A stretch of DNA of 64,000 nt from Tunturibacter empetritectus (GCF_040358985.1 NZ_CP132932.1:1426001-1490000); one strand, 5' to 3'. Counted from the stretch's first letter, positions 4,389-59,564 are shown. A program made the numbers and translations. The notes: generated by a model not told the origin, from the letters alone.

Positions 4389-4399
4389 AGGCGGTGGAA

Positions 4400-7482: not shown

Positions 7483-9042
7483 GTGTACAGTTTTGTCCCA
7501 CGCGAGCAAATCGCCGACACACTCATCCATCTCCGCGGGCTGTTTCGTAACGTTCCACCCGTCGACGAAAAGGAATATCGGGCGCAAGAGAGAAGAGAGC
7601 TTTTGACAAAGAACCTGCTTTCGAATCTCCGCCGCACCAAGGATCATCCCACTCTTCACTCCGTTCTTGAGGTTGCGAATGCCTTCTCGCTGACTCTTGA
7701 TGGCGCGCACCGACTCTTCGGATACGAGTTGGAGAGAATCAGAGAGTATGACCTCAGATTGAACGCCGGACGCACTCACATCATTGAAACTTACCCATTC
7801 GAGCGCGATCTTCTGGTTGACCTGCCCTCACAGTTGGGCGGCGATGAGATCTTTACCAGGAGTGCCACCCTACATGAACTTGTCCCGGAGTGGCAAGGCA
7901 ACGTTCCTATCCATGCCTTGGAGAATGCCGATTGGCGTCAGCCAGGCGCATTCTATGTGCACGTCGGAACAGAAGACAGCCTGGGCTCCAGCCTGCCGCC
8001 CGGTGCAATTGCTCTTGTAGTGCCGATAGACGAAGCAGAACAATCGCGTCCAAACCCAAGAGCAATCTATCTGCTTCAGTTCGGTAACGGATACCGTTGC
8101 AGTCGCTGTGTCGTCAGCCGAGGAAAGCTCATATTGCTAGTCTCCGGTCGAAGACATAACGGCCCTCATGAGTTCGCTTTTCCGAAAGACGTGCGGATTG
8201 TAGGAAGAATACGCATGTTCGCGTTGAGCCTTCCGCTGCCCGACTATTCGTTACTCCATTCTCTTCCAATGTCTGAGCACAACGCCCCGCTGGTCCTTCC
8301 CTGGGAGCATTCCTCAATGGATCGGCTGTTCGGGACGAAACATCGCCGGTTTCGGAGATCGCGTCAGGATCTTCCGCGCATTCAAGAGACGATGGAGTCA
8401 ATCTTCCATACGAAACTCAGCGGCAGGACGGAACGGCGCTATCGGCGCCATACGTCATCTATGCCCCATGTCGATGCACTGATCCGACTCTCCGTGATGC
8501 ATCTGACGCGTTACACCGATGCCCTCAGGGTGCTGCGGCCTATGCCCTCTGATCTAGGGAGGTATTCTCTCGATGCTCTTCTCAATGCAAGACACCTTGC
8601 GGATCTATCGGGAAAGTTTCGCCGACCGCATATGCCCGTTCCGAGGGATCGGTGGATGGAACTCCGCAAGAAATTTGCTGAATGGCCCATGCTGCTGTCG
8701 CTACGATTTCCGCAACTTCGCTCTTTGGACGATCGAGTGGTTCTACTTCCGCAGGGCAGCGCACTTCAGGGTGTCGATCCACCCATCTCTCCAGGCTCTC
8801 TCATTCTTTTGGAAGAAATACCCGGTATCTCTGAGATTCATAGCGACACGACAAAGGCCGGCTGGGGGCGCCGGCTCTATGCGTTTCGTAGAGGCACGGA
8901 TCTACGATGCGGCTACTTGGATAGAAATGAGGACCATTACACTCTTCTTGTCGGCTCTGACGGTGCCGGCGAAGCGATTTCGATTCGTCAGGACGAAATT
9001 CACCAGCTTAACCGCATCTCCGGCGTTGCTGTGCCGCTATAA
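7483..9042 (+). CDS. Putative XRE / S24-like regulator at the head of the lasso locus
   Basis: The GTG start at 7483 was chosen because gaggagg lies 9 bases upstream, giving about 519 residues. A longer TTG start at 7465 would overlap that site. Residues about 45-85 (LLSNLRRTKDHPTLHSVLEV, then ANAFSLTLDGAHRLFGYEL) resemble the second half of an XRE helix-turn-helix, with the recognition half poorly conserved. Two later stretches (around 150-260 and 430-515) look like the S24/LexA-like beta fold (for example LPPGAIALVVP, IVGRIRMF, SPGSLILLEEIPG). It is the first gene upstream of the lasso operon in the same direction, so cluster regulation is likely but inferred. The family is tentative. Confidence 0.5.
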   Translation: MYSFVPREQIADTLIHLRGLFRNVPPVDEKEYRAQERRELLTKNLLSNLRRTKDHPTLHSVLEVANAFSLTLDGAHRLFGYELERIREYDLRLNAGRTHIIETYPFERDLLVDLPSQLGGDEIFTRSATLHELVPEWQGNVPIHALENADWRQPGAFYVHVGTEDSLGSSLPPGAIALVVPIDEAEQSRPNPRAIYLLQFGNGYRCSRCVVSRGKLILLVSGRRHNGPHEFAFPKDVRIVGRIRMFALSLPLPDYSLLHSLPMSEHNAPLVLPWEHSSMDRLFGTKHRRFRRSRQDLPRIQETMESIFHTKLSGRTERRYRRHTSSMPHVDALIRLSVMHLTRYTDALRVLRPMPSDLGRYSLDALLNARHLADLSGKFRRPHMPVPRDRWMELRKKFAEWPMLLSLRFPQLRSLDDRVVLLPQGSALQGVDPPISPGSLILLEEIPGISEIHSDTTKAGWGRRLYAFRRGTDLRCGYLDRNEDHYTLLVGSDGAGEAISIRQDEIHQLNRISGVAVPL

Positions 9043-9885: not shown

Positions 9886-10155
9886 ATGAGCATCGGCAGC
9901 AATCATATTCATACGGTCACCGATCAGGATGGCGCCGCCATCCTCGATATCGAACACGGCACGGTCACTACGCTCAATTCCACTGGGGCCTTTGTTTGGC
10001 AACGACTTGAGCGAGGGGAAGGTCTGCAGATCATTGCCGCGAGTCTTTCGCGTGATACCGGCGAAGATGTCTTAACCGTCGAGCGTGACGTGCGCGAGTT
10101 TGTCGAATCACTCAAGCAAAACAACCTCTTGACTCGGCCTATGCGGAGGGCCTAA
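9886..10155 (+). CDS. Lasso peptide biosynthesis PqqD-like protein (B1, leader-binding RRE)
   Basis: This 89-residue PqqD-fold protein is the stand-alone RiPP recognition element that binds the precursor leader and presents it to the B2 protease and the cyclase. Visible PqqD features are a strand-rich N terminus (GAAILDIEHGTVTTLNSTG), the AFVWQRLERGE segment and a C-terminal helix (VERDVREFVESLKQNNLL). A good ribosome-binding site (ggagga) precedes the ATG by 5 bases. The stop is directly followed by the GTG of the next gene. In many proteobacterial clusters this domain is fused to the protease. Here it is separate, as in actinobacterial and firmicute types. Confidence 0.88.
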   Translation: MSIGSNHIHTVTDQDGAAILDIEHGTVTTLNSTGAFVWQRLERGEGLQIIAASLSRDTGEDVLTVERDVREFVESLKQNNLLTRPMRRA

Positions 10156-11526
10156 GTGTCAATCGCCGAAGCTACTATCGAGACGATCGAGTATCGGGTC
10201 ATCCTTGTGCGTTCTGACTCCCGCCAGCTGCTGGCGTTCGATGCAGTTGGAGGCTACTGTCTGCCGCGTGTTCGGATTCCGCTGTTTACCCGTCCAGCGG
10301 AGCAATTGCAGAAGGCTATCAAAGCCATAGTGGGACTGGCCGTTATCATTCTCGAGTTTCTCGCCGTGGAGAACGGTTGCTGCCGCTGCGCGGTTGCTGA
10401 GGTCCTTGCTCCCGATGCAAGCTCCGAACTCAGGCCGGTGACGCCCGAGAAGATTGCGGGTGCCGAGTTATCCGAACAGGAGCGTGCCCAACTTGCTTCC
10501 CTGCTTTCCGGCACCAGCCATTCCGCAGTATCCCAGATCGGCTGGATCGATCAGGCAATTGGATGGCTTGAGTGGGAGACTGCTGCGAAGCTCTCGTCCA
10601 AGAGCCAAATCGAACAGTACAACGCGGGTGGAGCTTTCTCCCTTATCCGTTTTCCTATGGACGATACGACGAATTACTGGCTGAAGGCGACGGGCGAGCC
10701 ATGTATACACGAACTCCCGATTACGAAGCATTTGTCCGAGCTGAGCGGTGATTGTCTCCCACACTTCGTCTCAGCACGGCCAGAATGGAACGCCTGGTTG
10801 ATGTCAGGTGGGCCCCAGGTCGAGGAGGTGACTACCGAGCCTTACAAGCTCTTCTGCTTTTTGGAAGGCGCCGCTGGATCCATAGCTGAACTTCAAATGA
10901 GAACTCAAGGACACAGCCAGAATCTGATGGACTCCGGCGTCTTCGATCAAGGCTTCGATGTCTTTCAAATGCATTCCGAAGCATTATTCGACTCTCTCGA
11001 AGAGGCCATGAGCCTGCAAACCTCATCCAGGGTTCCTCGTCTTGAACGATCACGTCTGCAGGAGATTCGCATAATATTCGATGATGTATGCAGTCGCATG
11101 GAGCGTCTCGATATACCCAAGACTATCGTGCATGGAGACATCAATTACGGCAATATCTTGTTCCGTTCCGGACGTTGTCAGTTCATTGACTGGTGCGAGG
11201 CATATATCGCTAGTCCACTCATTTCCCTACAGCACCTGTTGCTTCTTAACAAGACGAAGGATCCGGAGCTGAGGGGCTTCATGAGCCAGGGGATCACGGA
11301 CAGGTATCGAACGATCTGGTTGCGATCCTGCAATGCCGGCTCATTCGATAAGGGATTGATTTATATGCCGCTCCTTGCGGTTGTCTCGACCTTGTATGGA
11401 AGAGGCGATTGGCTGACTTCGCCCCAACGAAATGATCCCCGACGGCAGTCGTACGCACGCAGTCTTGCGCGACACATGGACAACGCAGCGCGCGAGCCGA
11501 AGCTGCTGGAGGCGCTATGCCACTAA
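10156..11526 (+). CDS. NUDIX-like / APH-type phosphotransferase fusion in lasso operon
   Basis: This protein has 456 residues and a GTG start immediately after the B1 stop. The first 130 residues resemble the NUDIX fold seen in lasso-associated proteins (YRVILVRSDSRQLLAFDAVG, YCLPRV) but lack a recognisable NUDIX box. The C-terminal half is an aminoglycoside/choline-kinase-like domain with the catalytic-loop motif VHGDINYGNILF and the metal-binding-type FIDWCEAY. These residues suggest an active kinase. Kinases that phosphorylate the lasso tail are known (paeninodin HPr-kinase type), but this is a different kinase fold. Modification of the precursor or product is therefore inference. It overlaps the prolyl oligopeptidase start by 10 bases. 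Confidence 0.78.
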   Translation: MSIAEATIETIEYRVILVRSDSRQLLAFDAVGGYCLPRVRIPLFTRPAEQLQKAIKAIVGLAVIILEFLAVENGCCRCAVAEVLAPDASSELRPVTPEKIAGAELSEQERAQLASLLSGTSHSAVSQIGWIDQAIGWLEWETAAKLSSKSQIEQYNAGGAFSLIRFPMDDTTNYWLKATGEPCIHELPITKHLSELSGDCLPHFVSARPEWNAWLMSGGPQVEEVTTEPYKLFCFLEGAAGSIAELQMRTQGHSQNLMDSGVFDQGFDVFQMHSEALFDSLEEAMSLQTSSRVPRLERSRLQEIRIIFDDVCSRMERLDIPKTIVHGDINYGNILFRSGRCQFIDWCEAYIASPLISLQHLLLLNKTKDPELRGFMSQGITDRYRTIWLRSCNAGSFDKGLIYMPLLAVVSTLYGRGDWLTSPQRNDPRRQSYARSLARHMDNAAREPKLLEALCH

Positions 11527-13546
11527 CCAACTCAATTCATACTCCGGTCGAAGAACTCATCCACGGCGTTGTGGTACGTGACCCTTATCGCTGGCTTGAA
11601 GATCGGAATCTTCCCGAAACGGAAGAATGGCTCCGCGATCAGCACTTGAGGTGCGAAGAATATTTCGCAGACTGCATCGATCTCGACGGGCTTCGAAAGC
11701 GTGCACGTGAGTATCTGGATATCGAAGTCGTCGATCAGCCGGCAAGAGTGGCAGGCCGATACTTTTACCGTCGGCGCGATAGAGGGCAGGAACAGGCAAG
11801 CATCTACATTCGAGACATGACATCGGGACTCGAGCGGCTACTCGTCGACCCTGCGGCGATGGGACCCTTCACAAGCGTCGGCATCCATCAGGTCGCCGAC
11901 GACGGATCGCTGCTCGCTTATGAGCTCAAACGGGATGGCGGAGATCGGAAAGCCATCCGCATTGTAGATGTTGTGAGTGGTTACATCTTGCCCGACAGCA
12001 TCGAGACCGGCTATGCGAGGGGCTTCTGCTTCACTTCGGATCTTCGGGGGTTTTATTATTGCCACGAAGTGCTGGAATCACCGGAAGAGCATTTGATCTG
12101 CGTCCACCTGTTTGGAGAGCCAGCCGAGGATCAGGTATGTTTTCGCGCTCCACGCACGCGTGGAAGCCGCTTGCTCCTGAGAGCCGATGAGATCCATTTG
12201 GGTGCGTTGTACGTACACGAGCTCGATGGGGAGTTCGTTGTCGATTTCTGGGTCGCCCGGCGCGATGAGACGAAGATCTGGAATTGTGTGTTCGCAAATC
12301 GCACCCTCCCATTTGGCCCCATTTTGAAACAAGGTCGTCTTTTCGCTCTCAGCTACGAACATGCCTCCCGGGGAAGCTCGTGGAGCTCGATCTCGCGGGA
12401 ACTGAGATCCGGACGGTCATTGCGGAGCAGGCAGGGACAATCCGTGAGCTCATCATGCTCGGCGACAGAATCTTTATCAACTATCTGGATCAACTGGAAC
12501 ATTCGGTCCGTTGCTGGAATCTCGCTGGGAAAGATATGGGCCGTGTACCCATTCCCCCGAATGGAACAGTTCAACTGCTGGCTCACCATGGCGACCATGG
12601 AAATAGTGTCTTCTACACATTTGAATCGTTCACGCAGCCGCTCGTCTTGTTTGAGTATGAGATTGACGCCGACGAGCCGCACCTCTGGCACCGGAGATGC
12701 ACACCAATAGCGCCTTTGTGTACTATTCGTGAGGCCTATTACCCCTCCGGAGACGAAAAGAGCATTCCGATAACCCTCGTGACTCCCAAAGGAGTTGGTT
12801 TGAGCGCTGGATTGCCAGTGTTGATGACAAGCTATGGAGGCTTCGGTGTGTCGATGACGCCACAGTTCTCCGTTCTCGTGTCCATCATGATGGAGCTGGG
12901 CTGTACCTTCGTGCTGCCCCACATCCGCGGCGGCGGGGAGTTCGGAAAGGATTGGCACGAAGCTGGCCGAGGAAGAAATCGCCAGGTAGCTTTCAGCGAT
13001 TTCATAGCCGCCGCGGAGTGGCTGAACAGGGAAAGTTTGACTTCGCCTCGGCTTGCCATCTTTGGCGGATCGAACTCGGGGCTATTGGTCTGCGCAGGGA
13101 TGACGCAGCGGCCAGATCTGTTCACCGCTGTACTCTGCATTGCTCCGCTTCTGGACATGGTGCGTTACGAATTTTTCGACCAAGCCGCGAAGTGGCGGAA
13201 GGAGTATGGGACTGTCAACGATCCGCAGGACTTCTCCGCTCTGTACGCATCTTCTCCGTACCACCATATTGGGGACCATATGAACTATCCGTCCTTATTG
13301 TTTGTAGCCGGAGACAGCGATGATCGCTGTAATCCCGCTCATGTCAGGAAGATGGCGGCTCGTCTGCAGAACCGCGCGGCCCAACGTTCTCCCATCATCG
13401 TGGACTACTGCGGAGAACGAGGACATTCCCCGGTTCTGCCTTTGTCTGTTCGCATCGAGGCCTTAGCAAGGAGAATCGCTTTTCTGTGCAAGGAGCTCAA
13501 CCTGCCTGTCGTCTTCGGAGACTGTCATGAAACGGCTTGTGCTTGA
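11517..13546 (+). pseudogene. Prolyl oligopeptidase (S9A) interrupted by one frameshift
   Basis: The first part, in frame from ATG 11517, begins like prolyl oligopeptidases (DPYRWLEDRNLPETEEWLRDQ). The family's sequence continues in the -1 frame from about 12371 to the stop at 13546. The break falls at a run of four Gs (12370-12373), where a fifth G would restore one frame of about 676 residues, near the usual length. The C-terminal part has the catalytic Ser in FGGSNSGLL, the Asp region GDSDDRCNP and the His in ERGHSP. Apart from this one base the gene looks sound, so a recent mutation or a sequencing error is likely. It is distinct from the isopeptidase at 16083. Its role in the lasso operon is unknown. 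Confidence 0.85.
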
Positions 13547-13904
13547 AAGCTGGTTATTGTTGCTCTATTTCGAATTAATCTTACGCGTCTGCGGCTTCAA
13601 ACACCTTCATCGCACTGTCCGAGAGATGAAGGTACGACCCGTTGGCGAGCAGGATTGCCTGACAAGCACCGGCCTGTGTCATGCCGTCGATCTGGCCTGC
13701 GTCTTTTATTTCAAGCGAGTGATGTGCTTGCAACGTTCAGCCGCAACGACGCTTCTGTTGCGTCGTCATGGGTGGGCAGCAGAGATGGTCATCGGAGCCC
13801 AGATAATGCCGTTCCGCTCGCACGCGTGGGTGGAGATCAAGGGTGTTGTCGTGAATGACAAACCGTACATGCTGGATACGTACCGGGTACTGGAGCGCTG
13901 CTGA
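13527..13904 (+). CDS. Lasso peptide biosynthesis B2 protein (transglutaminase-like leader peptidase)
   Basis: This 125-residue cysteine protease cuts the leader from the precursor. The family pattern is complete: the nucleophile in CLQRSAATTLLLRRHG, the His in FRSHAWVEIKG and the Asp in VVNDKP. The N terminus is hydrophobic (LESWLLLLYFELILRVCG), as usual for B2. The start overlaps the end of the prolyl oligopeptidase frame by 20 bases, with ggag 5 bases before the ATG. The cyclase starts 13 bases after its stop. Function is inferred from family and position, but both are strong. Confidence 0.92.
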   Translation: MKRLVLESWLLLLYFELILRVCGFKHLHRTVREMKVRPVGEQDCLTSTGLCHAVDLACVFYFKRVMCLQRSAATTLLLRRHGWAAEMVIGAQIMPFRSHAWVEIKGVVVNDKPYMLDTYRVLERC

Positions 13905-13917
13905 TCTGAGGTAGGTC

Positions 13918-15762
13918 ATGAGTGTTATTTTCGGAATCAGAAAGACCGAAGGAGCGTTGGTCGAGGGGCGGCAACTACTCGACCTAGCTCACGCGACTAA
14001 TCGCTATGCGCTGGATGGGACCTTTGTACGAGCCAAGGGAAGCGTCGGGATGGGCTTTCAGTCGTACCGTACTCATCAGCGTGCTGATCTGGAATCCCAG
14101 CCATTCCTCGATGACTTCGGCAATATGGTCTCGTTGGATGGCCGCCTCGATAATCACAAAGAACTTCGTGAATTGCTGGACATTCCTGGGACGGATACGG
14201 CGGATTCGCTGATCATTCTAACGGCTTTCCGTTGCTGGGGGGAGGAGTGCTTTGCTAGATTTGTGGGAGACTGGGCGCTCGCTCTTTGGATACAAGAGAA
14301 CAGCTCGCTTTACCTCGCTAGAGATCATGCCGGTACGCGGACGCTATATTTTGAAGAAACAAACGGCCATCTTGTATGGTCGACCTTCTTGGAGACCTTC
14401 TTTGCCGATAGAAGGTCGAGGCCTCTGGATGAAACTTATGCGGCACGCTACCTGTCGTGCCACCCAATCGGCGACCTGACACCCTTCGCCAATATTGCTG
14501 CGGTGACCCCCGCGCACTATTTCATCTTCTCTAAGGGAACCATTGTTCGCAGACCGCACTGGCAATGGATGGTCAAAGACCGGATCACCTACAACCAGGA
14601 CAGTGAATATGAGGAGCATTTCCTGAAGCTCTTTGCACAGGCTGTCGATCGTCGCACCGGTCCCGGGGCCCCGATTCTCGCGCACCTCAGCGGTGGGATG
14701 GACTCCAGCGCAATTGTTTGCATGTCCGACACCCTCAGGCTGCATCAGGGGCGACAAATAGAGCAACTGCTCGATACGGTTTCGTTTTACGACGACTCCG
14801 AGCCAGCCTGGGATGAAAAACCTTATTTTACGGCTGTGGAGTCCCAGCGAGGCAAAGTGGGTTTACACGTTGACGTATCTTCAACACGCCCAACATTCAC
14901 TCCGCTGTCTTGTCCTCCAGGGGGATATCCCCTACTGCCGGGGAACGATGGGGGCTCCTACGAACAAAGGGAGCACTTTGAAGAAATCTTGGCATCGCGG
15001 GGATATCGAGTCCTCTTGTCCGGAGTCGGAGGAGATGAGCTCTTGGGGGGCGTGCCGACGCCTCTGCCCGAGCTGTCCGATTATCTCTTGACCTGCAATC
15101 TCGCTGCTTTGTTTCAGAAGACGCTTCCTTGGTGCCTGAGTTTGCGCACCTCGCTCCTACATCTGGTTCGGGATACTGTTAGGTTCTCAAAGCGCGCCTA
15201 TTGGAGCGGTTCATCCGGCAAGATACACCTGCCGCCATGGGCCTCCCCCCGCTTGGAACCGAACGAGGCTGATGCCAAACAAGAAGGAGGTTTGCTCCTG
15301 CCGAGTAGGGTCATGAACGGAAGAACGTGGTGGTCGATACTGGAGACCCTTCCCAGCCCCCACCTTGCATCTTCGAGAAGAGAATACCGTTTTCCTTACC
15401 TTGACCGAGATCTGGTGGATTTCCTCCTTCGCATCCCCAATGATCAGCTCGTTCGCCCAGGCCGAAGACGCGCTCTCATGCGTAGAGCGCTCTCGGGCAT
15501 TCTTCCCTCCATTGTATTGGAGCGGCGCAGGAAGGCCTATATCGATCGAGGACCAGCTGTCACACTTGCCCTCTCTACAGACACAATTCTGGACTCCGTG
15601 GCGAACTCACTCCTGGCCAGGCATGGATATATCGACATTCCTAAATTCGAAAGCTTTCTTCGTCAAGTGGGATCCCAAGATCAGAGCAGGTGGGGATTGT
15701 CTCTCATGAGGACATCCCTCTTTGAAATCTGGTTGAAGTCAGGATGGGCCACCATTCCTTAG
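13918..15762 (+). CDS. Lasso macrolactam synthetase (asparagine-synthetase-like C protein)
   Basis: This 614-residue enzyme adenylates a side-chain Asp/Glu of the core and closes the isopeptide bond with the core N terminus. The N-terminal glutaminase-like domain starts MSVIFGIRKTEG and lacks the catalytic Cys2 of true glutamine-dependent synthetases. That loss is the rule for lasso cyclases. The PP-loop SGGMDSSAIV is near residue 260 and the ATP/acid site GVGGDELLGG near residue 370. The start has a gaggtagg site. It follows B2 directly and precedes the precursor. The family assignment is firm. Confidence 0.93.
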   Translation: MSVIFGIRKTEGALVEGRQLLDLAHATNRYALDGTFVRAKGSVGMGFQSYRTHQRADLESQPFLDDFGNMVSLDGRLDNHKELRELLDIPGTDTADSLIILTAFRCWGEECFARFVGDWALALWIQENSSLYLARDHAGTRTLYFEETNGHLVWSTFLETFFADRRSRPLDETYAARYLSCHPIGDLTPFANIAAVTPAHYFIFSKGTIVRRPHWQWMVKDRITYNQDSEYEEHFLKLFAQAVDRRTGPGAPILAHLSGGMDSSAIVCMSDTLRLHQGRQIEQLLDTVSFYDDSEPAWDEKPYFTAVESQRGKVGLHVDVSSTRPTFTPLSCPPGGYPLLPGNDGGSYEQREHFEEILASRGYRVLLSGVGGDELLGGVPTPLPELSDYLLTCNLAALFQKTLPWCLSLRTSLLHLVRDTVRFSKRAYWSGSSGKIHLPPWASPRLEPNEADAKQEGGLLLPSRVMNGRTWWSILETLPSPHLASSRREYRFPYLDRDLVDFLLRIPNDQLVRPGRRRALMRRALSGILPSIVLERRRKAYIDRGPAVTLALSTDTILDSVANSLLARHGYIDIPKFESFLRQVGSQDQSRWGLSLMRTSLFEIWLKSGWATIP

Positions 15763-15787
15763 ACCTGAGAAAAACGCTAGACAGTTT

Positions 15788-15834
15788 GCCTTCTCTGGAA
15801 GGCTACAAGTTCCGGATGGATCACCCATACGGAA
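15788..15834 (+). promoter_or_regulatory. Two small hairpins before the precursor gene
   Basis: The stem gccttc/gaaggc lies at 15788-15793 and 15798-15803 with a 4-base loop. A second stem ttccg/cggaa lies at 15810-15814 and 15830-15834, with some inner pairing. They sit in the 92-bp gap between cyclase and precursor. They may stabilise or process the short precursor message, but this is unproven. Confidence 0.3.
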
Positions 15835-15854
15835 GTCACAAAAGGAGTAATTCT

Positions 15855-16004
15855 ATGCGCTACACGGAACCAGTTGTTTTGTCCTACTCCATGGCTAGTT
15901 CTTCCGTCATGGGCTCTCCGAAGGCAACCAGAAACCCTGACAACATTGAAGGTGGCATGCCTGCTTTCCTCAGTTCCGTCGGAGCATATGAGGCGGACGA
16001 GTAA
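15855..16004 (+). CDS. Candidate lasso peptide precursor (49 aa)
   Basis: This short gene is preceded by a perfect-looking ribosome-binding site, aaaggag, 7 bases before the ATG. It lies 92 bp after the cyclase and ends just before a convergent-gene terminator. The leader has the Y-x-x-P motif bound by PqqD-like proteins (Tyr3, Pro6, then VVL). If Tyr sits at -17 as in fusilassin, the core begins at Gly20 (GSPKATRNPD...) with Val at -2, and Asp29 is position 10. Starting at Ser21 gives a 9-residue Ser1-Asp9 ring, reminiscent of paeninodin (P8-D9). Ala24-Glu32 is a third possibility. The tail is long and ends acidic (AYEADE). Precursor identity is likely, but the ring is unresolved. Confidence 0.75.
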   Translation: MRYTEPVVLSYSMASSSVMGSPKATRNPDNIEGGMPAFLSSVGAYEADE

Positions 16005-16020
16005 CCTTCATGCTTTCCAT

Positions 16021-16061
16021 ACAGGAGTTGATTGCCGGAAATCTGGACACTCAACTCCTGT
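16021..16061. terminator. Bidirectional hairpin between convergent lasso arms
   Basis: Perfect 11-bp arms acaggagttga (16021-16031) and tcaactcctgt (16051-16061) enclose a 19-base loop. It lies in the 78-bp gap between the precursor stop and the isopeptidase stop. There is no strong T-tract, but the position fits transcript ends for both arms. Confidence 0.6.
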
Positions 16062-16082
16062 GTGATATGAAAATCGTTCACA

Positions 16083-18389
16083 CTAGTGTGGCGAATCCAG
16101 CCGGCGTTCTGCATTAACTGCGCTCCGCAATTCACGCCATCGCTGGTATTGCTGAGGGTCCATCGCTGTAGGTCGCTCTTGGTCTCTTAGCCAGAACAGA
16201 TACCAATCCAGATTGCGTTCTAGCGATGCCAGGCGGGCCAAGGGATGACCGGGCTGGTGCGACTCCAGAGGATAGTAGTACATCTCGACAGGTTTTCCTA
16301 GGCGACTGAGTCCGACAAACACCTCCCACTTTAGAGCGAGATTGCTTGGAGGTGCCCCATCGTTGTCATACGCCACGCCGTTACCCATTACCTCCATCAA
16401 CAATGGAGTCTGAACCCTTGGAAGGTTGAACGAGATGGAATAGTCCAGCCACGATCTCAGTGTCGCGCCATAGGGCGGCCCTCCGTACATCGCATCCCAA
16501 GCGCGTAGAACCCCATCCGTGTGGATCATCCAATACTCGCCCAAGCTGTATTGTGTATTATCTGCGACGGTCGCTGCAGCATAGTTTGTTTTGCCGTGTG
16601 TAAGCGCAAATTCGGTATACCAGCCGGAACGGCTGAAGCCTATGATTCCAACTCTGTTCCGGTCAATGAGGCCGTCCTTCGCAAGATGGTCGATGGCACT
16701 ATCCCAGACATCCGCCTGAAATGCTACTTGTCCCAAAAGTCCAGGGAGGCCTTTGGGATAGTGGGTTTGTTCCTCCGCTGTCTGCGGTCCTTCGGGCAAA
16801 AAACGAATCAAATACATGATTCCGGCATTTGCAATCGGCTGGGGAGCAAATGAGGGCTCGTGATTCAAGCCACTATCGCAAAAGAAATTACCCGCTGCTG
16901 GATATGAGTGGATCACCAAGGGATAGCGTGTGCCTGGCTTGTAGTCCGGAGGTAGAAGGAGAATGCCGGAGGCACGATAGCCGGTCGAAGTCTCCCACTG
17001 CACTTCTTTGATTGGTGCCAGAGTCAGTTCGTCGAACTGCGGATTGAGCTTGGCCAGGATCTGCACCTGTTCTTCGTCCTCTTTGTAAGAAAACAGCTCC
17101 GGCGGAGTTGCCGGTGATTCATAGTCTCCTACGACAGATTTTCCATCGCTCGCAAGCCCTGCATTCCTGAAGAGCCCCTGAAGGGGAAGATGGATCTGCG
17201 ACGACTCCTCCCACTTCTGATGCTTATACTGAAACCGCGAAACGATGTTGTCTCCTGTACGAAGGACAAGATCGTCATCGGATCTCCACGACAAGGGACG
17301 ATCGTAGATTCCATTAAGTTCAGAACGAACCTGTATGACCGAGCCGGACGCAACGTTGACTTCGAATAAGTGAACTGCCTCGCTGGCTCCTCGATGCTCT
17401 CGCAGGTCTTGCTGCTCCCACACGCTATTGACTGGAGAGACAGAGGCGATCATGAACGACTTGCTGTCGCGCGACCAGAAGGGAATGCTCCATGCCCATG
17501 GGCCCTCAAATGGAAGATGTGTTTCGCCGTCCGATAAATCGACCACTACAGTAACCTGCGCTACTCCAATGCTGGAAAGGATGTCCCGAACTACCGGGCT
17601 TTTCTTCCAGGCGTTTGAAATCCGGCTGGAATTTTCAAGATATGTTAACGCCAGCGACTCTCCATTTGGAGAGAGGCTTAGCCGCAGATTGAGGGCGTAG
17701 GAAAGAGACGTGAGAGTTCCCTTGGTAAATGGCGACTGCACGTTCAAGGCCTGTGGTGCGGTCCACCCTCCCGTACCGCGTCTCCGGGTAACGAAGATCT
17801 TTCGCCGAAAGAAGAGCGCTACCTGCTCTCTCTGAAAGGGGATTCTATAGCCTTGCGCGAGGTCGCTGGCACTTTTTAGCTTGTTCCGGGTTTGGTCCGG
17901 CTCTTCCATCGCAAAGACAATGGTTTTACCATCTTCGGCGACGCTGTATTCGGAGATATCCTGAGACGCTCGCGCTAAGACCTGGACGCGTCCTGAAGGG
18001 ATCTCAACCTGTTTAACAACGGTGTGGCCGTCATCCTTCGCCAAGACAATGACGGCCGTGCCATCGTTCAGCCACTGCAAGCCGGAGATATCCGCACCGG
18101 CGAGTAAGTGTTGCACTTGCCCCTGCGGCGCACCAAGCTGTTTCAGCTCGAGGAGAATATCGTTCTGATTTGACTGAAGATTAGGGGCCTGAACCAGGTA
18201 CGCAACAGCAGTCCCTTGGGAATTGGTCTGAATGGAAGAACGAAAATCGTCCTCGAGAAAGTGCCGGACAGTAACGCAATCTGCCGGAACGATTGCCCTC
18301 CGCAACTCAGCCTGAAGACTTCCCGCGAAGACGCATAGGGTGAATATCAAGAACTTGTTGTGGCGCTTCCACATCTTCTGTTGGGTCAT
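16083..18389 (-). CDS. Atxe2-type lasso peptide isopeptidase (S9 family)
   Basis: This 768-residue serine hydrolase is of the kind that opens the lasso isopeptide bond and linearises the peptide. A signal peptide is evident (FLIFTLCVFAGSLQA), indicating the periplasm. After it comes CVTVRHFLEDD, the typical start of the Atxe2 family, then a beta-propeller. The hydrolase domain has the catalytic Ser in GIIGFSRSGW near residue 590 and the His in ESHQPGHPLARLASLE near residue 715, both family hallmarks. It is last in a minus-strand operon with the receptor (15-bp gap), anti-sigma and sigma factors. This arrangement is known from proteobacterial lasso loci, where the isopeptidase is specific for the cognate peptide. 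Confidence 0.92.
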   Translation of the reverse strand: MTQQKMWKRHNKFLIFTLCVFAGSLQAELRRAIVPADCVTVRHFLEDDFRSSIQTNSQGTAVAYLVQAPNLQSNQNDILLELKQLGAPQGQVQHLLAGADISGLQWLNDGTAVIVLAKDDGHTVVKQVEIPSGRVQVLARASQDISEYSVAEDGKTIVFAMEEPDQTRNKLKSASDLAQGYRIPFQREQVALFFRRKIFVTRRRGTGGWTAPQALNVQSPFTKGTLTSLSYALNLRLSLSPNGESLALTYLENSSRISNAWKKSPVVRDILSSIGVAQVTVVVDLSDGETHLPFEGPWAWSIPFWSRDSKSFMIASVSPVNSVWEQQDLREHRGASEAVHLFEVNVASGSVIQVRSELNGIYDRPLSWRSDDDLVLRTGDNIVSRFQYKHQKWEESSQIHLPLQGLFRNAGLASDGKSVVGDYESPATPPELFSYKEDEEQVQILAKLNPQFDELTLAPIKEVQWETSTGYRASGILLLPPDYKPGTRYPLVIHSYPAAGNFFCDSGLNHEPSFAPQPIANAGIMYLIRFLPEGPQTAEEQTHYPKGLPGLLGQVAFQADVWDSAIDHLAKDGLIDRNRVGIIGFSRSGWYTEFALTHGKTNYAAATVADNTQYSLGEYWMIHTDGVLRAWDAMYGGPPYGATLRSWLDYSISFNLPRVQTPLLMEVMGNGVAYDNDGAPPSNLALKWEVFVGLSRLGKPVEMYYYPLESHQPGHPLARLASLERNLDWYLFWLRDQERPTAMDPQQYQRWRELRSAVNAERRLDSPH

Positions 18390-18404
18390 TGGCTTTTCCT
18401 CGCT

Positions 18405-21400
18405 CTAAAATTGAATCTTCAATGCAAATTGAAGAGAGCGAGGACCGCCCTGTTGGTATTGCGAACCTAAGGTAGCGAGACTTTGATTCAGCGTCTGAGT
18501 AGCCTGTCCAAACGTAGCATCGGACAGCGTCGAATCGATCAGACCGAACATCGGATGGTTGAGGAGATTGAACGCTTCCGCTCTGAACTGCACTGTTGCG
18601 CTACCCGCCAGGGGGAAGGTGCGGCGTGCGGCGAGGTTGATCTGCGAAGCATCGAATCCTCTTACGAAGTTGCGCGGGGCATTCCCTGTCTTCTCCGCTG
18701 CCGGAAGCTGGAAAGCAACCTGATTGATCGAACGTCCACCTGGATATTGGGAACCATAGAGATAGACAGGTTGAGTTGCGATCAGGTCGACATTGCTATA
18801 GTAACGGCTACCTGTTGCCGGATCGGTAAGCAGGTCGCCTCCCAAAGTGACGGGGAAAGCAGTCCGTGCTATGAGGCGGCCATCGAGCGCCCACCCTCCA
18901 AGGATCGCTTCCGCACTCTTCCTCTGGTACTCGCCTGGCAGCTCCCAACTCACCCCTCCCTGAAGATTATCTCTGACGTCGAAGTCGGAGTTCCCTCGAG
19001 TCAGTGGCAGAGAAGCGTTGTTTGAACCGAAGTCTAACGAGTGAGACCAGGTGTAGGAGGCAAGCGCCTGAATGCCGTGGGTCACTGTGCGCTGGAACTG
19101 TATCTGCAAGGCCTGGTAGTTCGATGTGGTTCCCGTTTGGACGACATCCACGGTGCTGAAGTTCGGATTCAACGCTGTCAGAGAGAGCTGCTGCATCTGC
19201 AATAGCCGCCGGCCGTTCGATCCGACATAGGAGACTGTCAGAGCCTGAGGCCGCCCCAATGCCTGTTGCAGGCTCACATTCCATTGCAGCGTATATGGCA
19301 GTTGCAGATGCGGGGGAAAAGCAACTACTGCGGTGCTGGTGTAGGGAGCGGTGGTGGAAGGCGAGAAAGCCAACTGTGCTGGAATTACCGGGAATGCCTG
19401 GCCCGTTCCGATTTGAATTGCGGAGAAACCGAGATACTGATAGCCCGTTGTGGCGATTTGGTTTCCGCTGTCGAAGAACACGCCAGCCCCTGTCCTCAAA
19501 ATCGTCTCCCAATCCGGCTGATCCCGAGCCGTCCATGCAGCTCCAAGTCTCGGAGCGAAGTTGTACCAACTTGTCTTCCACAATGGTGTCCCTCGTGGTG
19601 CGACTGTAAGCGAACTAGGGTCGGCTAGATCGCCGAGAAGGGTGAAGGCGTCGTTCCCGTGCTCTTCGGTTGGCGGGGGATCGATCTCCCACCGAATCCC
19701 ACCGGAGATGGTCAGCCTTGGAAGCGAATGCCATTCGTCCTGCAAGAACACCGCGGTTTCGTTAAATATTGGCGTGGCTGGCAGAACCTTCGAGAGAATA
19801 CCGATATCCGCGCTGTTATTGAGAACCGAGGATTGATCGAGATAGATGCCCGAGACATAGGGAGATGATGGATACAGTGGAGATTTGATCCTCCGGTAGT
19901 CGATGCCGAGCTTGAGCTGGTGCTTCCCGAGGCTCAGACCGGCTGTATCGACGATATTCCATTGTCGGCTCTGATTCACACTGCCGATTGCCTGCAAGAT
20001 CGATGTTCCCGTACCGAAAAAGCTCAGTTGAAAAGCGCTGCCGGCAGTTTTAGACGCTTCATTCCCAAGCGCGCTTCCGAGGTCAACGGACGTAGCTCCT
20101 CCAAAGGAATCCAACGCCGTTTGCGTTCTCGAGTCGCTACGGGAGTAGCCAAGTCGGAACTCATTTGTGAACCGATTTGATAATTGGCTGGTTGCGCCAA
20201 CAGTGTAGGTCTGTGTGTCAAATGAAGTCTGCGTTAGAGCAGAGAGCACGCGGGTGCTGGTGGAGCTGGGTGTATCGCTAAAGCGAAAGAAGACGCTCGA
20301 CTTGGGTGAGACGACGTAATCGATCCGGCCGCTGATGGAGTCGATCTTGCTCGGGAGAGAGAAAGGCTCGATGAACTGCGCAAGACCGCTAGCGTAGTCG
20401 ATGCCGCCGATGCTTGGAAGAGGAAAAGCGCTAAGTATGGACTTCATGGCAGGAGGAGCATTCTGCCTCATGGCAGCGTCAGGAACATACTGAATTGAAG
20501 CAGCTTGAGGTTGGGTAAGCCGAAGCCCCTCGTAGGAAGCAAAGAAGTAGCTTGGGTGCGAAGGCGGACCAAGATACGGAAGGTGGATTGGGCCTCCGAG
20601 TGTTCCCCCAAAGTCGTTCTGGCGTAAAGGGGTGATCGCTCTTCCGTAATGGTCGTTAAACCAGTTGTTCGCGTCGAAGTAATTGTTGCGAAGATAGTCG
20701 AATGCGCTCCCATGAAATTTCTTTGTGCCCGACCGGGTAAGTAGTGAGAACTGTCCTCCAGGGGAGCGCCCGTACTCCGCAGAATAGGTTGATCCGGATA
20801 CACGGAACTCTTGCAGCGCATCGACCGAAACCAGGCTTTGCGTCGTGCCAAGGGCGGTTGTAGCTCCGATCCCTCCGCTGGTCGCCGCTTGAGGACCTCC
20901 CGTTGCTGCTCCGGCGCCGACGTTCGCGCTCACACCGTCGACCGCGTAGTAATTGCTCTCGGTTCGCTGGCCATTCACACTGAAATCACCGCTCGCGCCC
21001 ACAGCTTGAGACGACTGCGGGCTCTGAGTCACGATGCCTGGCGTCATTGAGATGAGATCCTGAAAACTGCGGCCGTTGAGGGGGATATTCGCAACAAATT
21101 TGCGGTCAATCACCGTACTGACCGAAGCGTCCGCTGTATTGAGCAAGGACGACCCAGCTTCCACCGTGATGCTCTGCGACGTCGCCCCCACGGGCAGAAC
21201 AAAGTTCAGCGCGATAGCCCCTTGCACATTCAGAACCACGTCAGGCTTGATGATGGTCTTGAAGCCCTGCTTCGAGACCTGCACATGGTAGTGTCCCGGA
21301 GGCAGGATGGGAACGAAGTACATTCCTGAGGTGTTCGTCTGGTCGGAATACCGCACGCCGGTCTCATCATTGGCAATCTCCACCGCGGCGCCCGTGATAA

Positions 21401-21554
21401 AACGGCCTGTGGGATCGGTGACTCCTCCGCTGATCGTGGCACTCGTCGACTGGGAAAACACCGCCGTGGAGACGAACCAGAGGGAGGACAGGAGAAGGCA
21501 AGCAAGTAGCTTCATACGACGATGCTCCGGAAATCTAGGATGAAAGGTGTTCAT
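18405..21554 (-). CDS. TonB-dependent receptor with carboxypeptidase-regulatory domain (lasso locus)
   Basis: This 1,049-residue outer-membrane protein is of the Oar-like acidobacterial type. The signal peptide is LACLLLSSLWFVSTAVFSQS. A CarboxypepD_reg-like beta-sandwich follows at about 30-125 (ATISGGVTDPTGRFITGAAV). The plug includes IPLNGRSFQDLISMTPGIV, and the remainder is barrel, ending in LQFALKIQF with the terminal aromatic residue expected for barrel insertion. It sits between the anti-sigma gene (49-bp gap) and the isopeptidase (15-bp gap), so import of the lasso peptide or a lasso-bound ligand is a reasonable inference. Such receptors are also used for glycans, so substrate is unproven. 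Confidence 0.88.
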   Translation of the reverse strand: MNTFHPRFPEHRRMKLLACLLLSSLWFVSTAVFSQSTSATISGGVTDPTGRFITGAAVEIANDETGVRYSDQTNTSGMYFVPILPPGHYHVQVSKQGFKTIIKPDVVLNVQGAIALNFVLPVGATSQSITVEAGSSLLNTADASVSTVIDRKFVANIPLNGRSFQDLISMTPGIVTQSPQSSQAVGASGDFSVNGQRTESNYYAVDGVSANVGAGAATGGPQAATSGGIGATTALGTTQSLVSVDALQEFRVSGSTYSAEYGRSPGGQFSLLTRSGTKKFHGSAFDYLRNNYFDANNWFNDHYGRAITPLRQNDFGGTLGGPIHLPYLGPPSHPSYFFASYEGLRLTQPQAASIQYVPDAAMRQNAPPAMKSILSAFPLPSIGGIDYASGLAQFIEPFSLPSKIDSISGRIDYVVSPKSSVFFRFSDTPSSTSTRVLSALTQTSFDTQTYTVGATSQLSNRFTNEFRLGYSRSDSRTQTALDSFGGATSVDLGSALGNEASKTAGSAFQLSFFGTGTSILQAIGSVNQSRQWNIVDTAGLSLGKHQLKLGIDYRRIKSPLYPSSPYVSGIYLDQSSVLNNSADIGILSKVLPATPIFNETAVFLQDEWHSLPRLTISGGIRWEIDPPPTEEHGNDAFTLLGDLADPSSLTVAPRGTPLWKTSWYNFAPRLGAAWTARDQPDWETILRTGAGVFFDSGNQIATTGYQYLGFSAIQIGTGQAFPVIPAQLAFSPSTTAPYTSTAVVAFPPHLQLPYTLQWNVSLQQALGRPQALTVSYVGSNGRRLLQMQQLSLTALNPNFSTVDVVQTGTTSNYQALQIQFQRTVTHGIQALASYTWSHSLDFGSNNASLPLTRGNSDFDVRDNLQGGVSWELPGEYQRKSAEAILGGWALDGRLIARTAFPVTLGGDLLTDPATGSRYYSNVDLIATQPVYLYGSQYPGGRSINQVAFQLPAAEKTGNAPRNFVRGFDASQINLAARRTFPLAGSATVQFRAEAFNLLNHPMFGLIDSTLSDATFGQATQTLNQSLATLGSQYQQGGPRSLQFALKIQF

Positions 21555-21603
21555 CCTGTCTACGGTTGGAGGTCGAGGTTATGTATCAGCTGCTGGTGCT
21601 ATT

Positions 21604-22836
21604 TTATGGGTGGTTGGGTTGAATCTGAAGGTAGGCGAGCAGAAGCGGCTTGCCGGTTGGCTTGGCGCTTCCTCCCTGCGGCTCTGCCGTGACAAAGACC
21701 TTGTTCAAATGCGCCAGCGTCTTGATGTCGTTAAACCTGAGGACCCATCGCTTGTGCGTATCGTCTTGATAAAAGATGCCGAGACTGACGTCCTGTCTGT
21801 CGTCACTGCTGCCCCACGCCTGGAAGGCAACTGACTGCTTCAAGCCGGACTGCTTATCCAGATCATAGCCATAAAACACTAGCGACTTGTCTTTCGTATA
21901 GAAGAGCCGGCCGAAAGGCTTGTTTGTCTTTCCAGTCTGCGCCACATCAAAGATATCGGCGATGTAAAGATCTCTCGCCCCGATCAGGTCTCGGATCTCC
22001 CGGTCATGGGCAAGGAACTCCTTGTCGAGCGCCAGCATCCGGTCCTTCTCCTCGAGAGCCAGGTTTGCCTCGCGAAGTTTCGCCTTTAGACTTTCTGCTT
22101 GAACCGCTTGCTGCGAGGAAGCCACATCGAAGGTTGTGGATCGGCTGCGCAGAGATTCGAGTTCGGTCTGCGCGGCGGCAAGCTGTTGGCTAAGAGTGTC
22201 TCGCTCATCGCTGATCTTAACCCGCTGGCTCTTCTCAGCCTCCAGTTGCTGCTCCGTGTTGGTCGCAGTAGACGTTGATTGCCGATAGAGGTCTTTGGTT
22301 GAGTTAATCTGCTGTTGAAGCTCTGTCACTTCATTTTGGGTGGCCTCCAATTGAGCTCTGAGCTCGCTATTGGCTCCAGACTTCCCCTCTGGCCGTGTTC
22401 TCTCATCCACACTGCTTGTAGAGACAGGCCGCACGGCAGGTCGAATCCCTGAGTGATGCAGACTAAGGCCAATCAGGCCGGACAGGATCGCGACGCAGGC
22501 CGCAATCAGGGCTAGCGGAAGCCTCCAGCTCCTGCTCTGTGGTTTGTGTGTACTGTCGGCTGGGCCGTCGGAGTTCAACCGGCTCATCAGCCGTTGCTCA
22601 GCCTCTTCCAGAAAAAACGACGCCGGTCCTGGCGGCCCGTCCAGCTCTGAAGCCGCGCTGGCGGCCATCACCGGAATCACATCCTTGGCAAGCTGTTGGT
22701 ACTCATCGAACACCATACGGCAGGAATTACAGTAGGCGAGGTGCACCTGCAGGAGAGCCCACTCCTCCTCTGTCAGTTCACCCGAAGGGAAGAGGGCGCA
22801 AAGGGCAACGAACTCGTCATGCCATTGAGGGTTCAC
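21604..22836 (-). CDS. Membrane anti-sigma factor with zinc-finger-type N terminus
   Basis: This protein has 410 residues. The N-terminal anti-sigma domain shows H-x3-C-x2-C (HLAYCNSCRMVFDEY, around residues 32-46), the zf-HC2 zinc-binding pattern. A single membrane span follows near 105-127 (LALIAACVAILSGLIGLSLHH). A long coiled coil then covers about 150-275 (LRAQLEATQNEVTELQQQ and repeats). The C-terminal periplasmic domain resembles RskA-type anti-sigma factors (SVAFQAWG, DVSLGIFYQDD). It follows the sigma gene by 40 bp. It should hold the sigma factor inactive and respond to a periplasmic signal, perhaps through the receptor. Confidence 0.82.
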   Translation of the reverse strand: MNPQWHDEFVALCALFPSGELTEEEWALLQVHLAYCNSCRMVFDEYQQLAKDVIPVMAASAASELDGPPGPASFFLEEAEQRLMSRLNSDGPADSTHKPQSRSWRLPLALIAACVAILSGLIGLSLHHSGIRPAVRPVSTSSVDERTRPEGKSGANSELRAQLEATQNEVTELQQQINSTKDLYRQSTSTATNTEQQLEAEKSQRVKISDERDTLSQQLAAAQTELESLRSRSTTFDVASSQQAVQAESLKAKLREANLALEEKDRMLALDKEFLAHDREIRDLIGARDLYIADIFDVAQTGKTNKPFGRLFYTKDKSLVFYGYDLDKQSGLKQSVAFQAWGSSDDRQDVSLGIFYQDDTHKRWVLRFNDIKTLAHLNKVFVTAEPQGGSAKPTGKPLLLAYLQIQPNHP

Positions 22837-22876
22837 CGGCTCGGCTCCCGCTTGGAGCTATTGTGTACCAATTCTC

Positions 22877-23578
22877 TCACTTCGTGATTCTTTTTCCCGG
22901 GAAGATGTGGGACCGGAGCCGCTCCAGTCCACGGTAGTAATGGTTTCTGACACTCCCGAACGTTCGGCCGGTCTTTTCGGCGATCTCATGGAAGCTATAT
23001 CCTTCAAAGAAGTGGAGCTCCATCGTCTGAATCTGCTCCGGCGAGAGCTCCCTGCGAAGCTTCTCCAACAGCGCTCTCCCAGCAAGTCCGTCAATCGATA
23101 TCCGCCCCTGATGACCTGTCAAGCGGTCCTCATCAAGCTCCTCACCATTGTAGTGCTGGCGAAAGCTCAGATACCTTCGGCGATCAATAGCTCGGCAGTA
23201 AGCCATTTGAATGATCCAGGAGGCACCCGAACCCTTTGCCGCGTCGAAGATGCTTGCCTTCTGGAAGATAAAGAGGAAGAGCTCTTGTAAGAGATCTTCT
23301 GCCTCGCAGTCGTCTCTCAGAATGCGGCGGGCGATGCTGAGGACGGCCCGGGCGTGTCTCTGAAACAGAACAGACAGCGCTTCCTTGCTTCCCTTCCCCA
23401 CCTGAACCAAAAGATCTTCATCAGTGCTCTCTCGGAGAGGACTATAGATCGCAATGGCCGGTGAAGCTGATCCGCTGTTGGGCTGGACCATGACGGGAGA
23501 CGATGCAGAAGCAGGCGCGTCGACGTCTGAGGCACTCGCAAGAGTATCCGGGAAATAGGCGGCGGCGTCGAGACTCAT
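22877..23578 (-). CDS. ECF-type sigma-70 factor
   Basis: The preferred start is the ATG at 23578 (233 residues). A TTG 15 bases earlier is possible. Region 2 (EALSVLFQRHARAVLSIARR, DCEAEDLLQELFLFIF) and region 4 (LRRELSPEQIQTMELHFFEG, then YSFHEIAEKTGRTFGSVRNH) are clear, and region 3 is absent, as in ECF factors. The first 55 residues are a low-complexity Ala/Ser/Pro extension. It leads the minus-strand operon with anti-sigma factor, receptor and isopeptidase, so it probably activates these genes and itself. A near-perfect palindrome stands about 75 bp upstream, shared with the divergent XRE gene. Confidence 0.9.
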   Translation of the reverse strand: MSLDAAAYFPDTLASASDVDAPASASSPVMVQPNSGSASPAIAIYSPLRESTDEDLLVQVGKGSKEALSVLFQRHARAVLSIARRILRDDCEAEDLLQELFLFIFQKASIFDAAKGSGASWIIQMAYCRAIDRRRYLSFRQHYNGEELDEDRLTGHQGRISIDGLAGRALLEKLRRELSPEQIQTMELHFFEGYSFHEIAEKTGRTFGSVRNHYYRGLERLRSHIFPGKRITK

Positions 23579-23652
23579 TCGGTTGCGCCCCAAACATTCA
23601 GCGGTGCGCTGCTAAAAACAACATTATCGAAGAAATGTCTAGCCACACACTT

Positions 23653-23683
23653 GTCGGTAATTACCCGTTGGGCAATTACCGAC
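23653..23683. promoter_or_regulatory. 31-bp near-perfect palindrome, candidate XRE operator
   Basis: Arms of 14 bases (gtcggtaattaccc and gggcaattaccgac) match at 13 of 14 positions around the 3-base centre gtt. The site lies between the divergent sigma-factor gene (start 23578) and the XRE gene (start 23707). It is placed 24 bases before the XRE start, as expected for autoregulation. It could also control the sigma operon. Confidence 0.7.
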
Positions 23684-23706
23684 ATAAACAGACCATAAAA
23701 GTCGTG

Positions 23707-23979
23707 ATGGCTAAGCGTAAACAAATTCAACCTCGGGCGGGCGTTGAGCGAGCTTTTGGGGATGAGATGCGTAAGGCTAGATTGAAGAAAAAGATGTCGC
23801 AGATGGCCTTATATGAGGCCACGGGTTTAGATCGAACGTTCATCAGTGATTTGGAGCGGGGCATACAAGGTCCAAGTCTAAGAACTGTCCTTCGTGTCGC
23901 CAGAGGAGTAGAAGTCGAACCCCAAGCTCTCATTGAAAGAACCGTGAAGTCTCGTTTTTTTGTCTTTCCTACCGACTAG
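23707..23979 (+). CDS. Small XRE-family regulator
   Basis: The ATG at 23707 gives 90 residues. The frame is open further upstream, but that stretch runs through the palindromic operator and the sigma promoter region. A Cro/CI-type helix-turn-helix covers about residues 17-72 (FGDEMRKARLKKKMSQMALY, then EATGLDRTFISDLERGIQ, then PSLRTVLRVARGVEVEP). There is no effector domain. Its position next to a 31-bp palindrome, and divergent to the lasso-linked ECF sigma gene, suggests an autorepressor that may also gate that operon. Confidence 0.85.
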   Translation: MAKRKQIQPRAGVERAFGDEMRKARLKKKMSQMALYEATGLDRTFISDLERGIQGPSLRTVLRVARGVEVEPQALIERTVKSRFFVFPTD

Positions 23980-24089
23980 CTCTTCCGGAAACATGCAGAA
24001 TAACTACACTAGTCCAAATTGCTCACTAACTTGGTTACGTCCCCATATTGGCGTAAACGGTACAATCAGTCAACCATATTGTAGTTGTT

Positions 24090-24134
24090 ATGTACTTCAA
24101 GTCATTCGTAAGATTCAGGATGCTTGAGGTACAT
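24090..24134 (+). promoter_or_regulatory. Inverted repeat covering the start of the second XRE gene
   Basis: Arms atgtacttcaag (24090-24101) and cttgaggtacat (24123-24134) match at 11 of 12 positions with a 21-base loop. The right arm covers the gagg motif and runs into the start codon at 24133. It could be an operator or an RNA hairpin hiding the ribosome-binding site. Confidence 0.5.
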
Positions 24135-24471
24135 GAGCCTTCATCCTCTCGATGGAAAACAGTTTCGAGCTCGACTGGTATTGCTTCGCAATGCCAAGGG
24201 GCTGAAGCAGGAGCAGTTGTCAGAGAGAATTGGACGTGCCTACAACTACATTAGTCGAGTGGAGACGGGACGCGTTAAGACCGTACCTTTTGATGTCCTT
24301 GCGAAATTGGCGCTCGCTTTGGACGTGACTATTGACGATCTATTGTTTATCGACGGATTGGCAGAAAGTGCAGACGACATAAAGTTCCGGATCAAAACGT
24401 TACTTGAAACTTCGGACGTTAAAAAGCTTCGTAAATTCTATCGTTTACTTCTGGTGATAGTTGAAGAATGA
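24133..24471 (+). CDS. XRE-family regulator with C-terminal helical tail
   Basis: The ATG at 24133 gives 112 residues. A TTG 9 bases upstream is less likely. The helix-turn-helix lies at about residues 10-65 (RLVLLRNAKGLKQEQLSERI, then GRAYNYISRVETGR, then VLAKLALALDVTIDDLLF). A helical tail (VKKLRKFYRLLLVIVEE) probably dimerises. It follows the first XRE gene by 153 bp. The two are too different to be a recent duplication. The target is unknown. The start codon is embedded in an inverted repeat that suggests autoregulation. Confidence 0.83.
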   Translation: MSLHPLDGKQFRARLVLLRNAKGLKQEQLSERIGRAYNYISRVETGRVKTVPFDVLAKLALALDVTIDDLLFIDGLAESADDIKFRIKTLLETSDVKKLRKFYRLLLVIVEE

Positions 24472-51677: not shown

Positions 51678-51736
51678 AATTTCTCCTAAGGTATTTTGAA
51701 TCCCTAAACCGCTCCACTCAGTCTAAAATATAGTAC

Positions 51737-51752
51737 GGAACGGTTCGGTTCC
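51737..51752. promoter_or_regulatory. Palindrome in the TetR-RND divergent promoter
   Basis: The 16-base sequence ggaacggttcggttcc has perfect 5-base arms (ggaac/gttcc) around a 6-base centre. It lies between the TetR gene and the RND adaptor and is the best candidate for the TetR operator. Confidence 0.55.
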
Positions 51753-51779
51753 AGTATAGCCGGAAAGGATCTGTAATCA

Positions 51780-53063: not shown

Positions 53064-53066
53064 GCC

Positions 53067-59551: not shown

Positions 59552-59564
59552 AAAGGCGAAGGAA

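Follow-up and report, generated by a model that had tools for sequence, protein, structure and literature searches.

How is the ring closed in a lasso-type peptide whose core carries no acidic residue at the positions where such a ring is expected to end? Known lasso rings comprise 7-9 residues, and in the precursor encoded within a 64,000-nucleotide stretch of the Tunturibacter empetritectus genome (NZ_CP132932.1:1426001-1490000; hereafter the window, meaning the whole stretch that was analyzed) core positions 7-9 read R7, N8 and P9, the first acid being found at position 10. In the lasso peptide reviews consulted the ring is always closed from the N-terminal amine, and a June 2026 review likewise has the ring closing at the N-terminus and assigns isopeptidases mainly to alpha-proteobacteria. 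This misfit of the precursor to the canonical ring rule is the most interesting feature of the locus, and was absent from the first-pass annotation of this DNA.

Analysis of the window with Pfam and NCBIfam models bore out the earlier description. The lasso-type locus of this acidobacterium is real and complete and consists of two arms that converge, each gene being recovered at the coordinates given below. The biosynthetic arm encodes, in order, B1, an APH-type kinase, a prolyl oligopeptidase, B2, C and the precursor, so that B1 and B2 (a B-type peptidase with its RRE) stand beside an AsnB-like cyclase and a small precursor, as in other lasso clusters. The convergent arm comprises an ECF sigma factor, a zf-HC2/RskA-type anti-sigma factor, an Oar-type TonB receptor and an AtxE2-type isopeptidase. 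This is the single locus of its lasso kind in the source genome, and its features are as follows:

9886..10155 (+), B1, a PqqD-like RiPP recognition element of 89 aa (Pfam PqqD, 1.7e-14; NCBIfam lasso_PqqD_Strm, 9e-12, below cut-off)
10156..11526 (+), APH-type kinase of 456 aa with an intact HGDxxxxN motif (Pfam APH, 3e-5)
11517..13546 (+), prolyl oligopeptidase (S9), frameshifted (Pfam S9_N, 3.8e-33, and S9, 6.6e-41, in two frames)
13527..13904 (+), B2, a transglutaminase-like leader peptidase of 125 aa (NCBIfam lasso_biosyn_B2, 79.9 bits against a cut-off of 33; Pfam Transglut_core3)
13918..15762 (+), C, an asparagine-synthetase-like macrolactam synthetase of 614 aa (NCBIfam lasso cyclase model, 8e-72, below cut-off; GATase_7 and Asn_synthase)
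15855-16004 (+), A, the precursor peptide MRYTEPVVLSYSMASSSVM / GSPKATRNPDNIEGGMPAFLSSVGAYEADE, 49 aa (good RBS; homologues in ~70 loci); full precursor sequence MRYTEPVVLSYSMASSSVMGSPKATRNPDNIEGGMPAFLSSVGAYEADE
15855..15911 (+), precursor leader with Y(-17)xxP and V(-2) (the I/V(-2) register of the homologues)
15921..15923 (+), core Lys4, the proposed ring-closing amine (Lys-acid register)
15939..15941 (+), core Asp10 (Lys + 6), the proposed ring-closing acid (Lys-acid register)
15975..15977 (+), core Ser22 (position -9 relative to the C-terminus), a candidate substrate residue of the kinase (in the relatives, S/T at -9/-10 goes along with an APH gene)
15984..16001 (+), conserved C-terminal AYEADE (the sole genome-wide match for the coding of this ending)
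16083..18389 (-), AtxE2-type isopeptidase of 768 aa with a signal peptide by eye, Ser586 and His711 (Pfam S9; NCBIfam and PDB relatives)
18405..21554 (-), TonB-dependent Oar-type receptor of 1049 aa (Pfam OMP_b-brl_4, 1.7e-140; CarboxypepD_reg; weak Plug)
21604..22836 (-), anti-sigma factor with a weak zf-HC2 domain, a coiled coil and RskA_C (Pfam)
22877..23578 (-), ECF sigma factor with an ATG start (sigma-70 r2/r4 domains); a longer ORF with a TTG start extends to 23593

The N-terminal domain of the APH-type kinase (~140 aa) gave no Pfam hit, and the cyclase has the LSGGMDS loop with Ser in place of Cys2. The locus yielded no ABC transporter, and the ORFs scanned within it and nearby include no GntR regulator.

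Several other gene groups are encoded in the window. Upstream of the lasso locus, positions 2343-5454 encode a TraG/TraD-like coupling protein and a VirB11-type ATPase, and because of these genes the locus may belong to an integrated conjugative element or adjoin one. A 525-aa ORF with a TTG start and no Pfam match (7465-9042) separates the secretion genes from the lasso locus. On the other side of the locus are two XRE-like regulators identified by eye (23503-24471), a likely VapBC-type toxin-antitoxin pair, in which a small ORF precedes a PIN-domain protein (24570-25240), a mutagenesis cassette composed of a RecA/ImuA-like ORF (by eye), an ImuB-type Y-family protein and a DnaE2-type polymerase (27997-33756), and an RND efflux operon with a TetR regulator, a HlyD-type fusion protein, two AcrB-type pumps and an outer-membrane factor (51042-61070).

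The gene content of the locus was compared with that of known lasso clusters. In the classical version, found on proteobacterial plasmids, a sigma-FecR-receptor-isopeptidase arm faces C-B-A-GntR, and the first-pass annotation noted that the sigma/receptor/isopeptidase grouping is known from Proteobacteria, where such an arm facing C-B-A is the rule (PMC9266682). The alphaproteobacterial isopeptidase clusters (astexin, benenodin and sphingopyxin) share with the window this arrangement of sigma factor, anti-sigma factor, TonB receptor and AtxE2-type isopeptidase, and usually have no ABC transporter either (PMC9266682). The window differs from them in its split B1/B2, in the order B1..C-A with the precursor last, in its APH kinase and oligopeptidase, in having an RskA-type rather than a FecR anti-sigma factor, an Oar-type receptor and no GntR, and in the Ile/Val(-2) and Lys-acid registers of its precursor. 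Clusters of related gene content have also been reported from soil. BGC 482.1 of soil Acidobacteria (Negri 2022, PMC9064862) shares the order B1, APH-type kinase, B2, C and A, with two A genes instead of one; its authors propose a canonical Gly/Asp ring and a core start that gives Leu/Ser at -2, and the accessible text of the paper does not describe a Lys register. Three of the Group II split-B soil clusters have an intervening prolyl oligopeptidase (Negri 2025, PMC12670498). The earlier view that the mixture of genes in the window was not known as described was therefore too strong, since the same order recurs in dozens of relatives and its parts are published (PMC9064862, PMC12670498, PMC9266682).

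To place the locus among its relatives, a B2 model was searched against 397 genomes of the order, which identified B2 genes in 112 of them, and 100 B2 neighbourhoods were retrieved for comparison of layout and precursors. Loci in which B1-APH-(oligopeptidase)-B2-C-A faces isopeptidase-receptor-anti-sigma-sigma occur across the Acidobacteriaceae. Counted over those members of the window's cyclase group whose flanking sequence sufficed, B1 was present in 60/62, APH in 53/62, the oligopeptidase in 41/62 and B2 in 59/62; for the convergent arm the counts were 25/27 (isopeptidase), 27/27 (receptor), 20/27 (anti-sigma) and 21/27 (sigma). The NCBIfam isopeptidase model has matches in every genome of the order that was searched, and is by itself not specific. 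Parts of this architecture had been described before, and it is widespread as an acidobacterial form of the isopeptidase-type lasso cluster. Some relatives depart from it: L118 and L120 have two tandem C genes per lasso locus and no APH, with precursors ending in AYEDWE or AYQDWE, and one genome (G196) has an unusually large number of lasso-type loci, with eight lasso B2 matches in a single assembly.

What the window's precursor shares with its relatives became apparent from an alignment on Y(-17)xxP of 92 precursors from ~70 loci of the order. Residue -2 is Ile in 73 and Val in 16 of these (89/92), and would mark a fixed leader cut; the cut in the Ile(-2) register has been proven for BsfA (PMC10368454). 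The window peptide has the YxxP motif and Val at -2, and so belongs to the Ile/Val kind and not to the Thr kind. When positions are counted from this cut, 57/86 precursors of the Lys-type clade have no Asp or Glu at core positions 7-9. Instead, a Lys occurs anywhere from position 2 to 9 and an acid from 8 to 15, and the two move together: an Asp or Glu lies exactly at Lys+6 or Lys+7 in 82/85 Lys-bearing precursors, and the positions correlate at 0.95 when computed on the 82 fitting precursors alone. Shuffling of residues gave a fit in 13.4 +/- 3.2 precursors (maximum 24), and combining the Lys position of one precursor with the acid position of another gave 37.3 +/- 4.1 (maximum 53), against the 82 observed. 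When residue types were compared for their spacing to the acid, Lys scored 83/86 and the next best, Gly, 37/86. A single locus, L124, encodes three precursors with Lys3/Asp10, Lys7/Asp14 and Lys7/Asp14, in which the overhang before Lys differs and the spacing is the same. Four precursors were found after the rule had been formed; three fit it, and the fourth comes from the L087/L156 subclade, which lacks the Lys or its spacing as well as the conserved tail motif and looks canonical. The other exception is L066, with a spacing of 8.

Taking these results together, we favor, with moderate confidence, the reading of this locus as a lasso-type RiPP locus with a biosynthetic and an uptake/linearization arm, in which a predicted bridge from a Lys side chain to Asp/Glu closes the ring. 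By homology, B1 would bind the YxxP leader and B2 would cut after V(-2)-M(-1), leaving GSPKATRNPDNIEGGMPAFLSSVGAYEADE. C would adenylate and thereby activate the core acid, which the spacing statistics suggest to be Asp10, and from the same statistics the attacking amine would be the side chain of Lys4 and not the N-terminal amine of Gly1. Closure between Lys4 and Asp10 would give a 26-atom ring with a free N-terminal overhang, GSP. Counted by hand, the predicted rings have 26/27 atoms (Asp/Glu) at Lys+6 and 29/30 at Lys+7, as compared with 25/26 for a canonical 8-residue and 28/29 for a 9-residue ring, and the Lys rings are thus one atom larger. The Lys-anchored register is, provisionally, the new element of this locus; a literature search in which coverage of subscription papers was limited yielded no precedent for a Lys-closed lasso peptide and nothing more on acidobacterial lasso peptides. 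Graspetides would share the side-chain amide between Lys and Asp/Glu, if Lys is indeed the nucleophile, but are made by ATP-grasp ligases, whereas the enzyme here is asparagine-synthetase-like and none of the ten proteins scanned from the locus has an ATP-grasp domain. Set against closure by Lys is the result that the tested split-B soil clusters, some with an oligopeptidase, gave no product in E. coli from constructs that omitted the peptidases (PMC12670498).

The same spacing would also arise if the core started at the conserved Lys, with the overhang trimmed by B2 or by another peptidase, of which the prolyl oligopeptidase is a possible candidate, and the Lys alpha-amine closing a 7- or 8-residue ring. 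Lys+6 and Lys+7 would then correspond to ring positions 7 and 8, both known lasso ring sizes, and overhangs do measure 2-8 residues in loci with the oligopeptidase as against 1-5 (mostly 1-3) in loci without it (Mann-Whitney p=2e-6). This association, strong by raw count, is not significant on independent pairs from the tree, and the oligopeptidase as overhang trimmer was accordingly demoted to a rival; moreover, 21 precursors from loci without the oligopeptidase still have overhangs. The constant distance of Ile/Val(-2) from YxxP and the proven cut of BsfA also argue against a start at Lys, as does the finding that Lys is never residue 1 in any precursor, although its direct exposure by B2 would be simplest. 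In addition, the residue preceding Lys is unconstrained, and such a start would give no 9-residue rings. On balance we consider this reading unlikely. Slightly more doubtful still is a canonical lasso that starts at Gly or Ser with a ring of 8-15 residues, or with a shifted start, Lys being conserved for another reason, e.g., binding to C or to the receptor. Gly or Ser is indeed residue 1 in 61/92 precursors, and in the window peptide a ring from Ser2 to Asp10 would have 9 residues, but two thirds of the Lys-type clade described above have no acid within the known ring range, variable starts contradict the fixed Ile/Val(-2), and the joint movement of acid and Lys would be left unexplained.

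The distribution of the Lys-acid register was followed on a cyclase tree (a quick IQ-TREE search with SH-aLRT support only). The Lys-type precursors map to one cyclase clade of 70 with a support of 100 (73 in the first tree); the sole Lys-type precursors outside that clade are the two of L109, one distant locus. Because related sequences are not independent, changes were counted on this tree: the Lys position changed at least 29 times and the acid position at least 32 times, and among the fitting rows the spacing swapped between 6 and 7 alone. Clades with canonical G1-D8/E8 cores adjoin the Lys-type clade. Outside it are the canonical Ile(-2) loci L086, L155 and L157, with G1-D8/E8 cores, L121 with A1-D8, and the Thr(-2) loci of other acidobacterial families, with the acid at 8 or 9 (L173, L174, L184, L176, L179 and L183). 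Since both registers fit the Lys2/Asp8 precursors of L109, outside the clade, and of L147, inside it, these precursors suggest how the switch could have begun.

A second feature of the precursors is the tail consensus [ST]-x-[APG]-[AG]-Y-[EQD]-x-D-E. Ser or Thr occurs at -9 or -10 in 63/63 precursors of APH-bearing loci, and the 13 precursors of loci scored as APH-negative comprise 9 without Ser/Thr, 3 in the fusion locus L103 and 1 exception (L128, in which Thr is kept). The APH gene changes only about 4 times on the cyclase tree, so that this association cannot reach significance by independent pairs. From the association of gene and residue, the conserved tail Ser/Thr (Ser22 in the window) is the predicted target of the kinase, which would phosphorylate it. 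According to Duan 2023, all Ile/Val(-2) clusters found, including listed Acidobacteriaceae relatives, carry a kinase or phosphotransferase. The BsfA-type Ile(-2) phosphorylated lassos of Bradymonas (Duan 2023) share with the window the split B1/B2, Ile/Val(-2) and a kinase in the cluster; in Bradymonas an HPr-type kinase acts on core Ser3 and the ring is Gly1-Asp8, whereas here the kinase is of the APH type, the conserved Ser/Thr is in the tail and the acid follows Lys. In L103 the APH kinase and the prolyl oligopeptidase are fused in one 1154-aa ORF (14086-17547, -), and this fusion suggests that the two proteins may act together.

As the first-pass annotation had reported, the prolyl oligopeptidase is the only broken gene, and all others are intact with intact counterparts in the sister strain L062 (Edaphobacter lichenicola M8UP22, now Tunturiibacter lichenicola, Acidobacteriaceae). 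The break is the loss of one nucleotide from a G run (12369/12370); the sister strain has an intact copy. The frameshift may be a recent event or a sequencing error; homopolymer indels are a common assembly error. Were it instead the first step in the loss of the locus, this strain would make no product, and about one third of related loci do lack the oligopeptidase. However, many of these relatives retain the remaining genes, and in the window the remaining genes are under purifying selection between the two strains (dN/dS 0.09-0.61). Since these genes are also intact in both strains, the locus is kept, and we regard its decay as very improbable. A signal peptide was read by eye on the isopeptidase and none on the oligopeptidase, from which the former is predicted to be periplasmic and the latter cytosolic, where it probably trims or degrades the peptide.

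On the convergent arm, the TonB receptor would re-import the product and the periplasmic isopeptidase would open its ring, while the chain of receptor, anti-sigma factor and sigma factor would tune expression. The best NCBIfam model for the isopeptidase is the Atxe2 family NF033523 (E=1.3e-57; the score of 196 bits falls below the curated cut-off, 400 bits), and its best PDB relatives are AtxE2 (5txc, 6e-25) and 5jrk (2e-16). All 67 proteins compared, 3 of them proteobacterial, share Ser586 and His711; the acid of the catalytic site is not assignable from the alignment. A shared ECF promoter upstream of B1 and the sigma gene was considered and rejected: the candidate motif, CCGAAC-N15-TGGC, precedes B1 in some members of the clade (L118, L120, L158, L113, L154, L159 and L082), and is absent from the window and from the regions upstream of sigma genes.

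Overall, with slightly better than even confidence, we propose that in an Acidobacteriaceae cyclase clade an internal Lys side chain has taken the place of the N-terminal alpha-amine as nucleophile, which would keep the ring size and leave the N-terminus free. The products would form a lasso (or lasso-like) class closed from side chain to side chain, phosphorylated on the tail by an APH-type kinase and served by a receptor and an isopeptidase of their own. If this is true, Lys side-chain closure would add a chemistry new to this enzyme family and would break the N-terminal-amine rule by which mining tools call precursors, and it might explain the odd annotated cores of acidobacterial clusters. 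Its cyclases would yield products with an available N-terminus, of use in fusions or display, and because canonical and Lys-type clades adjoin, the switch is amenable to direct tests in vitro. Finally, the receptor/sigma/isopeptidase arm, in a common soil phylum, offers a second, non-proteobacterial system for asking what isopeptidase-type lasso peptides do.
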